Assembly: GCA_001512915.1 (NCBI GenBank)
Contig: LFTC01000068.1
Location: 1 to 46,522, forward strand
DNA length: 46,522 nt
Direction of reading: 5' to 3'
Source: Clostridiales bacterium DTU083
GTDB taxonomy: Bacteria; Bacillota; Clostridia; Caldicoprobacterales; DTU083
Part shown: in pieces, positions 23,782 through 28,676 of the stretch
Layout of the letters: every line of letters begins with the position of its first letter
Position numbering within the stretch: the first letter of the stretch is position 1
Notes under the pieces: model-generated
Database searches by the model: none
What the model was told of the DNA's origin: nothing
Seen by the model: the letters and a program-made list of their open reading frames with translations, nothing else
Position numbers and translations under genes: made by a program

Positions 23782-25035
23782 CTAGTTAAGATTCAGGCAT
23801 TTCCGAATATCCAGAATCCCGCTTCCTTGAGCATATTTATTAACACCGCTCATTGCGAATGTGCTTTTCATCAGCATTTCCTTTACTTCAGAAGGTGTCA
23901 TATTTGGATACTTATCCAAAAGCAGGGCTGCTGCACCTGAAACCACCGGTGTAGCAACCGATGTGCCGGACATTTGCGTGTAGGGATCTTTCATATGCTG
24001 CGGACGCAGTCCCCCGACATAGCTTTTGTCGGTTTTTGCAGCTGTTATATTGACGCCAGGCGCAACCAAGTCCGGTTTCACCTGTCTTCCATTTACAGGC
24101 CCCCGGCTGGAAAAATCCGCTATTACATCATCTTTGTAATCCGGAGTTCTCTTGTCATCCACTGCCCCTACAGTCAGAATCATCGGGCTGATACCAGGGG
24201 TAGCAATGGTGTTTTGTTTCGGACCCGAATTCCCTGCTGCTGCAACTACAACTATGCCCTTTTTCCAAACCGCCTCAACCGCCGCCGCAAGAGGATCAAA
24301 CCGGGAATTGGAAGGCTTTGCTCCTAGTGAAAGGGACATTATTCTGACATTGTATTCCTGCTGATGGTCCACTACCCATTGCATACCTGCTACAATATCG
24401 GATGAATTTCCCGAACCATCCTTATCCATAACTTTGACGCCGATAATATTGGCCTCAGGTGCAATTCCTCTATACTTGCCGCCAGATGAATATCCGTTTC
24501 CGGCGGCCACGCCTGCCACAAAGGTACCGTGTCCATGATCATCATAAGGACTTTGCCGGTTATTCACAAAGTCGCGAAAAGCCACAATCCGATTCCGCGG
24601 TCTTGTAAAATCCTGGTGTGGATAAATTCCGGTATCCAGTATGGCGATTCCTATCCCCCTTCCCAGATAACCGGTATCATTTGCAATGCTTGCCCCAACC
24701 TCCTGGGCGGCTACATTTAAAAGTGCGCTCATTTTTACATCATCGGATATATATTCTACTATATCTGATCTGGCAGTATCTTCCAATTTGCCGCCGTCTA
24801 TTTTAACGGCATAAGCATTAATCAAAGGTAATTCATACTTTATTTCAATACCCTTGCTTTCTAGAAATTTCCTGCATAATTTTCTTTTTCCTTCCTTCGA
24901 AAAAATGATAGCCGGAACTTTGCTTTCTCCAAGGGTTCTGGTTTTTTTCAGCAATCTGCTGTCTATTTTTTCTCTGCCCTTACCGTATGAATGAATCAGA
25001 AAGGGCAGCAGTAACATTCCCGATAACAGTTTCAA
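23782..25035 (-). CDS. Subtilisin-like serine protease (S8)
   Basis: A 417-residue protease. A hydrophobic N-terminus of about 16 residues (weak signal or anchor) is followed by an I9-like propeptide (about residues 38-105, ending in VEYISDDVKMSAL) and the S8 domain. Catalytic residues are all present: Asp134 in AILDTGIYPHQDF, His169 in DDHGHGTFVAG, Asn269 in AAAGNSG and Ser359 in MSGTSVATPVVSGAAA. No extra domains follow. The start is TTG after GGGGGGAG. It is likely secreted or cell-surface, with possible roles in spore or wall processing. It stands alone with its own terminator. Confidence 0.93.
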   Translation of the reverse strand: MKLLSGMLLLPFLIHSYGKGREKIDSRLLKKTRTLGESKVPAIIFSKEGKRKLCRKFLESKGIEIKYELPLINAYAVKIDGGKLEDTARSDIVEYISDDVKMSALLNVAAQEVGASIANDTGYLGRGIGIAILDTGIYPHQDFTRPRNRIVAFRDFVNNRQSPYDDHGHGTFVAGVAAGNGYSSGGKYRGIAPEANIIGVKVMDKDGSGNSSDIVAGMQWVVDHQQEYNVRIMSLSLGAKPSNSRFDPLAAAVEAVWKKGIVVVAAAGNSGPKQNTIATPGISPMILTVGAVDDKRTPDYKDDVIADFSSRGPVNGRQVKPDLVAPGVNITAAKTDKSYVGGLRPQHMKDPYTQMSGTSVATPVVSGAAALLLDKYPNMTPSEVKEMLMKSTFAMSGVNKYAQGSGILDIRKCLNLN

Positions 25036-25110
25036 GGATCTCCCCCCTTCCTATCTCGCCTTGTATATCTTATGTATATACAGGCGAAACTGTTAAAGGG
25101 GGCATTGAAA

Positions 25111-25335
25111 TTAATACTGCAGTTCCTCCATAAGCTTTTTGATTTTACGCTTTTGTTCGCTGGTCAGCATGGGCATGATTGCCTGAAACATCTGCATTGC
25201 CTTTTGTGGAGTCAGACCGCCTTGTCCGCTGCGAATCATATCTGCCAGTTCGCTGATCACTTTATCTTCCGATTTTCCCTGCATTCTTTGGGCAATCTCA
25301 GACATGTTTTTAATATCCTGGGTGCGAAAATCCAT
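25111..25335 (-). CDS. Small helical protein with one 'P-M-L-x-x-E-Q' repeat unit
   Basis: A 74-residue, mostly helical protein I do not recognise. Residues 45-74 (KAMQMFQAIMPMLTSEQKRK, then IKKLMEELQY) match the unit repeated four times in the protein encoded divergently at 25472. Two ribosome sites are possible; I use GGAGGAGG seven bases before the ATG at 25335. The divergent arrangement and shared repeat indicate that the two genes belong together. Confidence 0.7.
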   Translation of the reverse strand: MDFRTQDIKNMSEIAQRMQGKSEDKVISELADMIRSGQGGLTPQKAMQMFQAIMPMLTSEQKRKIKKLMEELQY

Positions 25336-25471
25336 TTGTCTTCCTCCTCCCATCCTTCCTCCTTACCATCCTATTCAGCTCCTTTGCAATTGACACAATT
25401 CTTCCAGTTTTCATGGCACACAGAAGGCAGCACTGCGTATTATAGATTAGGAGTTTGTGAGGAGGAGTAGC

Positions 25472-26410
25472 ATGATACAGAAAAGCAATCCCCGTTGGGA
25501 GCGTAAAGAGCCCTGGAAGTTCGTACCAAGGCGGGATTTATTTCCTGACGCAGAAATGCCTGCAAAATCGGATAAAAACAAACACATAATTAAATCTTCC
25601 AAACAAGGCACACAAATTATAAAGAAAGGGTACTTAGCGGAGAAAAGTTCCGTAAAGCCTGTAAAACCATGGCCAAAAAGCCTTGCAGCACAGCCTGAAC
25701 TGTTACTTCTGCTGTTTGCACTTATTTTCCTTAAGAGCTCCAGCAGGACACAATTAAAAGTTCTGGACCAGCCACAAAGCATTCAAATGCTTAAATCAAT
25801 AGGACCTTATCTGGATGAAAGGGAACAGAATATTGCATACACCGCAGCCGGTATAATGGAAGCAGCCCAATTAATCAGGGATATAGCCAGCCATACTTAC
25901 CATCATAAAAACAAAGCAGCTTTACTGCATGTACCTTCCAGTCCTGCCGCCCGGAGGATAGAAGCATTGAAAGCAATCAAGCCTTATATTGCCAAGGAAA
26001 ACAGGAAACAACTGGACAGGTTTTTGAATTTTTATGAAGGAGTCAGAAAGGTACAAAGCAACCTCTCCCTGTATAAAGACAAGAAAGGGATTTCAGATGA
26101 ACAAGGGGCCGCACCCCTGAAAAAGGCAGGCGAGTTTCTGGAGCTGATACATCCCGTTCTGCCTGATGAGCAAAGACAAAGAATAGACAGGGTCATGCAA
26201 ATGATAAAAATGGTGGAAGTGATGGGAAATGCGGAAAAAGCTGCTCATGATAAAAACAAGCGGAATGAGGAAATCAAAAAAGAAGCGGCTAATAATAATG
26301 AACAGTCAGAAAAAATAATGGATTCCCTTGCCCCCATGCTGAATGAAGAGCAAAAGGAATCCATGAATATGATTATTAAAATGGCCCAACTATTATCCCA
26401 GCCGGATTAA
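25472..26410 (+). CDS. Repeat protein with four helical units at a 58-residue period
   Basis: A 312-residue protein of unknown function. The first 70 residues are basic and disordered-looking; residues 75-88 are hydrophobic (ELLLLLFALIFL) and may anchor it to the membrane. Then come four related units starting near residues 105, 163, 221 and 281, each with the pattern h-x-x-h-x-P-h-h-x-x-E-(Q/N) followed by an amphipathic helix (SIGPYLDEREQ, AIKPYIAKENR, LIHPVLPDEQR, SLAPMLNEEQK). The last two linkers are charged. The start is the ATG at 25472 after GAGGAGGAG. Its end overlaps the convergent ECF gene by four bases. Confidence 0.72.
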   Translation: MIQKSNPRWERKEPWKFVPRRDLFPDAEMPAKSDKNKHIIKSSKQGTQIIKKGYLAEKSSVKPVKPWPKSLAAQPELLLLLFALIFLKSSSRTQLKVLDQPQSIQMLKSIGPYLDEREQNIAYTAAGIMEAAQLIRDIASHTYHHKNKAALLHVPSSPAARRIEALKAIKPYIAKENRKQLDRFLNFYEGVRKVQSNLSLYKDKKGISDEQGAAPLKKAGEFLELIHPVLPDEQRQRIDRVMQMIKMVEVMGNAEKAAHDKNKRNEEIKKEAANNNEQSEKIMDSLAPMLNEEQKESMNMIIKMAQLLSQPD

Positions 26411-26960: not shown

Positions 26961-28676
26961 TTATAGTATATTGACTTTTTCTATTCTGCTCTCTGATTCC
27001 TTCTGGCCTTCATGAACATTCATTACCAATACGGTAACGTCATCGATCATATTTCTGTCACCAAGTATGGTTTCATATAACTCAAACATATAATCAGCTG
27101 TATCATAAGCGGTGGTGCTTTTTATGCCGCGAAGATACTCCATCAAGTGTATTTCGGTAAAGTATTCAGGCCGTTTTCTGTCTATTTCAATTAATCCGTC
27201 GGTATATAAGAGCAGGCTGTCACCCGCTTCCAGCTGCAGAGTTCGGTTTTCATAAGAAGGATTTACCAGTCCGCCAAGTTTGCAGATCGGCAGCCCTTCA
27301 ACGGGAATAGCTTTTATTGCCCCGTTTTTCTGCAATACCAGCGGCTGGGTGTTCATCCCCGCAGAGCAATAAGTAAATACACGGTTTTCTACATTATAAA
27401 TTCCGTAAAGCATAACAGTATAAATTTCTTCTGGGAAGTTCATCCTGTTGTATACATAGAACAAATTGGTCAATACCTGTTTAGGTGTTAAAATGCGTAT
27501 ACGCCCGTCGTCATATTCTCTGCGCACATGAATGTGCTGATTTATAAAGACAGTGATCATTGCCGCAGATACCCCATGGCCAGCAACGTCTCCGATCAAA
27601 ATTCCGATATTATCCTCATCCAGGCGAAAAATGTTATAAAAATCTCCACCTATTTTTTCGCAGGGAAGATACTTGGCTGCAAAATCAACCTTGCTAAACT
27701 GGGGCAACGTATCAGGCAGCAATGCATTCTGAATGTTGCGGGCATAATCTATGTCTTTAATCAGCTTTTCATTGGCTGCCGTAATCTCGGCAGTCCGCTT
27801 CATAACCAGCTTCTCCAGGTTGTTTGCATATTCTGCCACCTGCTGTTTAGCTTCATGCAATTCCAGATAAGGTTTTTGTACATTCAGAACAAACTTGGCC
27901 TTAAATATCAAATAATAAGTAATTATCTTATAAATATGGCCAAGTAAGTTGTAAGTATCATAGACGCTTGTATATATGGTAAACGACAACTCGCTGAATA
28001 CACTCAAAAGCATGGCCAGAATAATATACTTATATTCCTCTGCCTCTTCCCTCCTGTTATAAATCAGGAAAAACAGGATAATGCTTACCAGCTTCATGGT
28101 TATAATAGCATATTCCAGATTAACTTTTGTCCGGGTAAGACCGACTCCTTCCACATACAAAGTAGGCAGGTATTCATGCCTGCTGATGATTACATAAGAA
28201 AGAATGGCTGTATACACCAGGGAAATTATAACAAGAATAAACCTGTGTATCTTTGACGGCCGATTGCGTTGAATTGATCCGGCAGCCACCAAACCAATGG
28301 ATTCTGTAATTCTGGCTGCAATCCAGAATGAGGTGGATACTGCTACAGATGAAACTCCAAAAATGCCCGGCATACCGTTGTAGGTTAAGGTGTGCAGGGT
28401 ATCCAGCAGGCCGACAGAAAAAAAGGTGCACATGAATACGATCGTTCTCAGGTTTTTGTCTCTGGCAATGGTATAATAGGATATAAAAAAAATACAGAAG
28501 GACATGACTATGCTCATGCCTTCAAAACCTATATGCCAATTCAAAAAGGCACTCCTTTGAAAAACACGATACAGATAGGTTTCGTACCATTGAACTGCAC
28601 TGAAGACAAAAATCGACAACAGCAGTACGGCAATAAATACTGCCGCATCTTTTTTTAGATTCTTCTTAACCCCCAT
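26961..28676 (-). CDS. MASE3 membrane sensor with SpoIIE-type PP2C phosphatase
   Basis: A 571-residue signalling protein. Residues 1-270 hold about eight membrane helices with the MASE3 sensor pattern (MCTFFSVGLLDTLHTLTYNGM), then a short coiled coil (about 275-310, LVMKRTAEITAANEKL), then a PP2C/SpoIIE phosphatase domain with metal-binding Asp residues in KIGGDFYNIF, IGILIGDVAGHGVSAAM, LLLYTDGLIEI and MIDDVTVLVM. Such proteins dephosphorylate anti-sigma-factor antagonists in response to a membrane signal; the target is not in this window. GGAGG lies eight bases before the ATG. Confidence 0.92.
   Translation of the reverse strand: MGVKKNLKKDAAVFIAVLLLSIFVFSAVQWYETYLYRVFQRSAFLNWHIGFEGMSIVMSFCIFFISYYTIARDKNLRTIVFMCTFFSVGLLDTLHTLTYNGMPGIFGVSSVAVSTSFWIAARITESIGLVAAGSIQRNRPSKIHRFILVIISLVYTAILSYVIISRHEYLPTLYVEGVGLTRTKVNLEYAIITMKLVSIILFFLIYNRREEAEEYKYIILAMLLSVFSELSFTIYTSVYDTYNLLGHIYKIITYYLIFKAKFVLNVQKPYLELHEAKQQVAEYANNLEKLVMKRTAEITAANEKLIKDIDYARNIQNALLPDTLPQFSKVDFAAKYLPCEKIGGDFYNIFRLDEDNIGILIGDVAGHGVSAAMITVFINQHIHVRREYDDGRIRILTPKQVLTNLFYVYNRMNFPEEIYTVMLYGIYNVENRVFTYCSAGMNTQPLVLQKNGAIKAIPVEGLPICKLGGLVNPSYENRTLQLEAGDSLLLYTDGLIEIDRKRPEYFTEIHLMEYLRGIKSTTAYDTADYMFELYETILGDRNMIDDVTVLVMNVHEGQKESESRIEKVNIL

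Follow-up and report, generated by a model that had tools for sequence, protein, structure and literature searches.

A divergent gene pair encodes a 312-residue protein with tandem helical hairpins and a 74-residue protein that ends, by profile comparison, in the same module, and the pair quite probably serves sporulation. In the window, the whole 46,522-nucleotide stretch of DNA analysed here, a sigma-K type promoter precedes the long gene and a subtilase gene follows the small one. Chances are about even that this is a clostridial sporulation module, active late in the mother cell and at the spore envelope, and made of a membrane repeat scaffold, a small partner and a protease. The observations behind this view are the repeats, the conservation of the pair, the sigma-K type promoter, the subtilase linkage and the association with spore formers.

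The long protein and its repeats

The long protein and its parts are placed as follows.

25472–26410, plus strand: long protein gene, 312 aa (ORF 25472–26407), supported by orthologues and an AlphaFold2 model
25694–25747, plus strand: membrane-like hydrophobic stretch, about residues 75–92 (model helix 75–88, conserved hydropathy)
25772–25891, plus strand: repeat unit 1, residues 101–140 (hhalign profiles and AlphaFold2)
25943–26092, plus strand: repeat unit 2, residues 158–207 (hhalign profiles and AlphaFold2)
26114–26275, plus strand: repeat unit 3, residues 215–268 (hhalign profiles and AlphaFold2)
26294–26398, plus strand: repeat unit 4, residues 275–309, degenerate outside family f1 (hhalign profiles and AlphaFold2)

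The frame starts with ATG and has a perfect AGGAGG ribosome site. A basic, proline-rich N-terminus is followed by a short hydrophobic helix and then by four helical-hairpin units. The sequence-only reading had proposed four in-register helical repeats, and these stand with a spacing of 57–60 residues and a weaker unit 4. The unit prolines lie at residues 112, 171, 231 and 288 (spacings 59, 60 and 57), and that of unit 4 is mostly lost outside family f1. AlphaFold2 with the 28 orthologues places the hairpins at 101–113/116–140, 158–172/175–207, 215–229/232–268 and 275–289/292–309. The mean pLDDT is 62.7 and the pTM 0.30; the predicted hairpins are credible, their packing against one another is not. 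Hydropathy finds a hydrophobic segment of 13–17 residues preceding the repeats in almost all orthologues and distant relatives, which upholds the membrane stretch earlier suggested at residues 75–88.

The small protein and the shared module

The small gene lies on the other strand.

25111–25335, minus strand: small protein gene, 74 aa, two helical hairpins (ORF 25114–25335; relatives' starts, model pLDDT 85)
25117–25209, minus strand: C-terminal hairpin of the small protein, residues 43–73, the module common to the long-protein units (hhalign)

The most likely start of the small protein is 25335, because the ATG there comes after GGAGGAAG and aligns with the starts of the relatives, which begin with MEF, MDF or MN at this downstream ATG. 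An alternative upstream ATG at 25353 would give 80 aa. AlphaFold2 folds the 74-aa form as two hairpins with good confidence (pLDDT 85). The single intergenic region of the divergent genes spans 25336–25471 and measures 136 bp, as first read. A 132-aa frame antisense to the small gene (25072–25470, plus strand) is very likely spurious, given the conserved small gene.

The units were compared by hhalign with profiles from the 28 orthologues, using 60 column shuffles and reversed profiles as controls. This profile comparison of the five units had been called for at the outset; units 1–3 and the small C-terminus beat every shuffle, and unit 4 is weaker. The hhalign probabilities are 94.7% for U1–U2, 94.0% for U2–U3, 93.6% for U2–small, 93.2% for U3–small and 72.5% for U1–small, scores reached by 0 of 60 column shuffles. 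The weakest pair among units 1–3 and the small protein is U1–U3, at 15%, above 60 of 60 shuffles and nearly equalled by its reversed control. For unit 4, the U3–U4 (42%) and U4–small (35%) comparisons both exceed all 60 shuffles, U1–U4 is marginal (1 of 60 as high) and U2–U4 is no better than chance (14 of 60 as high).

As judged from these profiles, the module occurs in three clear copies and one degenerate copy in the long protein and in one copy in the small protein. The values for U2 and U3 agree with the original view that the small protein ends in one copy. Two copies in the small protein were considered and rejected, since its first hairpin has no detectable similarity to the module.

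No curated Pfam or NCBIfam family scores over its cut-off for either protein. Homology of the small protein with ribosome recycling factor was rejected at 19.7 bits against a cut-off of 29.7; the similarity draws in apparent RRF genes (frames of 185–205 aa) as weak false positives. Foldseek with the low-confidence long-protein model gave no match at E <= 0.001, and a fold search with the small-protein model gave nothing significant. PDB profile searches returned helical matches at chance level only. The tandem hairpins of the long protein resemble HEAT, ARM and TPR repeats and would offer a plausible docking surface, but the module here has a short helix of ~13 and a long helix of ~25 residues with a 57–60 residue period. 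No Pfam repeat matched, nor did any fold, the latter with the low-confidence long-protein model.

Promoters

Two conserved elements lie between the genes.

25418–25444, plus strand: promoter of sigma-K type before the long gene, AC-N16-CGTATTATA (supported by 26 of 28 genomes and by controls within the lineage)
25368–25396, minus strand: promoter-like element conserved before the small gene, GTGTC-N15-GAATAGGAT (upstream alignment across the order)

The intergenic region has diverged across the order, yet a block 5′ of the long gene is nearly invariant. The pattern AC-N16-C(A/G)TAnnnT(A/G) precedes the long gene in 26 of the 28 orthologues (a set that includes the more distant L029), with G as the second −10 base in family f1. 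Of the remaining two, one has a 17-bp spacer and the other departs from the pattern at its last base. According to the published consensus for C. difficile, promoters of sigma-E and of sigma-K have a similar −10 and differ in the −35, which is ATA for sigma-E and AC for sigma-K (PMC3789822). We counted an element as sigma-K type when it had a −35 AC, a 16–17 bp spacer and a −10 CATAnnnT, and the long gene carries such an element.

Controls within the lineage separate the two factors. AC-N17-CATAnnnT is found upstream of sigK in 10 of 10 genomes, and a sigma-K type element upstream of spoIVA, a sigma-E gene, in 0 of 10. The host genome itself carries spoIVA and sigK (G000:C12, 2.5e-106, over the cut-off). 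In other orders, 15 of 42 genes of the module, counting those for long, small, subtilase and tiny membrane proteins, have a sigma-K type element 44–85 bp upstream; 7 of 131 neighbouring genes have one (p = 3e-6), and in the reversed upstreams of the module genes it occurs in 0 of 42. Scanned across the whole genome, the pattern is no more frequent than its reversed control, and the promoter is therefore called from the conservation and these controls.

The small-gene element can also be read as GTGTCA-N17-TAGGAT. It was not assigned to sigma-G or sigma-F: the SASP upstreams have GTGTA/GTATA-N17/18-CANATTA and the spoIIR upstreams GTATA-N14-GTCAATACT, both unlike GTRTC-N15-GAATAGGAT.

Distribution

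Of 30 genomes of the order, which includes Caldicoprobacter, 28 carry the long gene, each in a single copy, and every one of these has the small gene next to it in divergent orientation. Caldicoprobacter oshimai and C. algeriensis are among the named carriers. One genome of the order (G023, 98% complete) has sigK and spoIVA, lacks the long gene and has no credible small gene.

Across the class we searched a sample of 391 genomes with both profiles; the long profile matches 39 and the small profile 61. Frames of 185–205 aa, apparently ribosome recycling factor, were left out of the small-protein carriers. More diverged pairs exist elsewhere in Clostridia, divergent in families f22, f70 and f74 and on the same strand in f25. 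Outside the order, spoIVA is present in 30 of 31 robust small-gene carriers against 234 of 341 non-carriers (p = 2e-4, the genomes not being independent), and the sole robust carrier without it is a genome 78% complete. These counts support, outside the order, the restriction to spore formers raised in the sequence-only reading, and the sigma-K type promoter sharpens that link further.

Short proteins with a single similar module (NLLYALKPYMSATRERQIDNAIKMLRM) were seen at L085:6321–6617, L086:9530–9913 and L092:6462–6875. They suggest a much wider clostridial family.

The linked subtilase and other neighbours

Two further genes of the window were followed.

23782–25035, minus strand: S8 subtilase, 417 aa, 3′ of the small gene on the same strand (PF00082, 8.7e-60, synteny)
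26961–28676, minus strand: MASE3-SpoIIE-type membrane phosphatase, a neighbour kept in several families, its functional link uncertain

The subtilase gene follows the small gene after 75 bp, and the two likely form one operon. The sequence-only reading had left this gene unnamed, and it alters the view of the locus. The Asp (DTG), His (HGTF) and Ser (SGTS) motifs are readable in its sequence, and an N-terminal pro-region is present, aligning from residue 27 to a longer relative. A subtilase is linked to the pair in families f1, f2, f4, f22, f25, f33, f39 and f40, and in f64 the linked gene is truncated. The protease is not obligatory for the pair, because family f3 keeps the pair without it and has a cysteine desulfurase directly next instead. 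In f70 and f74, no subtilase was found within the fetched flanks of the pair.

In family f25, the genes of the subtilase, of a one-module protein carrying a membrane helix at its C-terminus, and of the small and long proteins sit tightly together on one strand, and several of them have sigma-K type elements before them. In f2, f22, f33 and f40, tiny hydrophobic proteins of the LLFFFLLLVILF type are encoded 5′ of the long gene. Those of ~45–65 aa and the SLLFFFLLLVILF type lie beside it at L083:7586–9051, L093:1538–2186, L078:1910–2080 and L088:5880–6026. Several of the tiny-protein genes beside the long gene carry sigma-K type elements, and no Pfam family scores over its cut-off for these proteins. 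In f1 to f4 and in the distant f25 the phosphatase gene lies close to the pair; it was not found in the fetched flanks, some of them short, of f22, f33, f39, f40, f70 and f74.

In one genome, the subtilase gene is split at the codons of the catalytic histidine by a 45.6-kb element (45,552 bp; G015:C1, about 125744–171309, L205–L207). A 14-bp direct repeat, CATGGTACCTTTGT, bounds the element, which encodes a large serine recombinase of 531 aa at its right end and ParA at the opposite end. Joining the flanks gives an open reading frame. From its sequence the element looks like a skin-type element: like the skin element of sigK, it splits a gene between short direct repeats and has a large serine recombinase near one end. 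It differs from the skin element in that its gene content gives the impression of a conjugative rather than a phage-like element, and its excision is putative. Similar elements interrupt sporulation genes elsewhere (PMC5025042, PMC4191935, PMC5595907). By this analogy, the interrupted gene supports a mother-cell use of the subtilase, short of proof.

In another family, a subtilase frame stops at the identical HGT codons beside a serine recombinase (G183:C22, L081:4185–6018). This recombinase is 42% identical to the one above, and the other half of the subtilase was not found on the contig.

Discussion

The preferred explanation would run as follows. Sigma-K would turn on the long protein, which would enter a membrane via its short hydrophobic helix, most likely that of the mother cell or the outer forespore membrane. 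Its row of helical hairpins would then serve as a docking scaffold. The small protein, with its one hairpin copy, would be made together with the S8 subtilase and might either dock on the scaffold or hold the protease. Proteolysis of envelope proteins, the presumed substrates, would thereby be limited to the spore surface and to late development.

This scaffold–protease mechanism is proposed tentatively, as one possibility that falls somewhat short of an even chance. In this order, the promoter of the small/subtilase operon differs from that of the long gene, so the three proteins may not be co-produced. The genome of the order with sigK and spoIVA yet neither protein also counts against the explanation.

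Two other readings keep the sporulation setting and deserve weight, each being rather unlikely. In the somewhat better placed of them, both proteins are structural building blocks of the coat or exosporium with no enzymatic partner, and the subtilase is an independent late-sporulation neighbour. The sigma-K type promoter, the retention of the pair where the subtilase is lost, the tiny hydrophobic proteins transcribed in the same clusters and the failure of either protein to match a catalytic family all agree with this. That the subtilase is linked to the pair again and again, in families that differ in gene order, speaks instead for a joint role. The chief role of the small protein might otherwise be that of a dedicated inhibitor of the subtilase or of its partner in folding, with the long protein as its membrane anchor or substrate and sporulation as the time of use. 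In most families the small gene lies directly 5′ of the subtilase and shares its strand, which fits such a partner, as does the tight f25 cluster of subtilase, one-module membrane protein, small and long genes. Yet this account, the less probable of the two, has to face f3, where small and long genes persist with a cysteine desulfurase directly after them and no subtilase, and the f70 and f74 pairs, which have none in the fetched flanks; moreover, the subtilase has its own N-terminal pro-region.

Sporulation would be incidental if the pair were a vegetative or stress-signalling module tied to the MASE3-SpoIIE phosphatase, whose gene is close by in f1 to f4 and f25. The sigma-K type promoter and the spore-former distribution argue against it, as does the phosphatase's absence near the pair in the other six families surveyed (fetched flanks, some short), and we regard it as highly improbable.

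The late mother-cell module favoured here can be compared with known spore proteases. The CspB, CspA and CspC germination subtilases are likewise spore-associated S8 proteases of Clostridia, but the neighbour subtilase scores ~79 bits, far under the Csp cut-offs of 1250 and 675, and the Csp proteins are not known to have a repeat partner. Our impression is that it falls in the AprX/thermicin subgroup, with which it shares the S8 domain (PF00082), the catalytic motifs and a pro-region. To our knowledge, subtilases of that subgroup have no repeat-protein partner. For AprX of bacilli, the absence of a signal peptide has been described (PMC9549277).

The coat protease YabG would be a parallel, if the proposal is true, in its late mother-cell action on spore-surface proteins, but the neighbour subtilase belongs to another protease family. 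YabG-like CD3569 is under sigma-K control in C. difficile (PMC3789822). In the order studied here, YabG over the cut-off is found in 0 of 30 genomes. It is conceivable, if on balance doubtful, that a sigma-K-controlled membrane scaffold and its one-module partner place and gate a dedicated subtilase that replaces the missing YabG, with the protease gene as a repeated site of skin-like insertion.

For anaerobic spore formers, the set of genes that act late in the mother cell has received little description. C. difficile shares few of the coat proteins of Bacillus (PMC3789822). Sigma-K dependent spore-envelope loci are a known kind, and a limited literature search found no description of this module and arrangement. 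If true, the proposal would describe a new spore-maturation protease system. With its recognisable protein module, its promoter and its protease partner, the locus is open to direct testing. The split subtilase may be a new case of a developmentally excised element, and the locus hints at how an order without YabG might process its spore surface.
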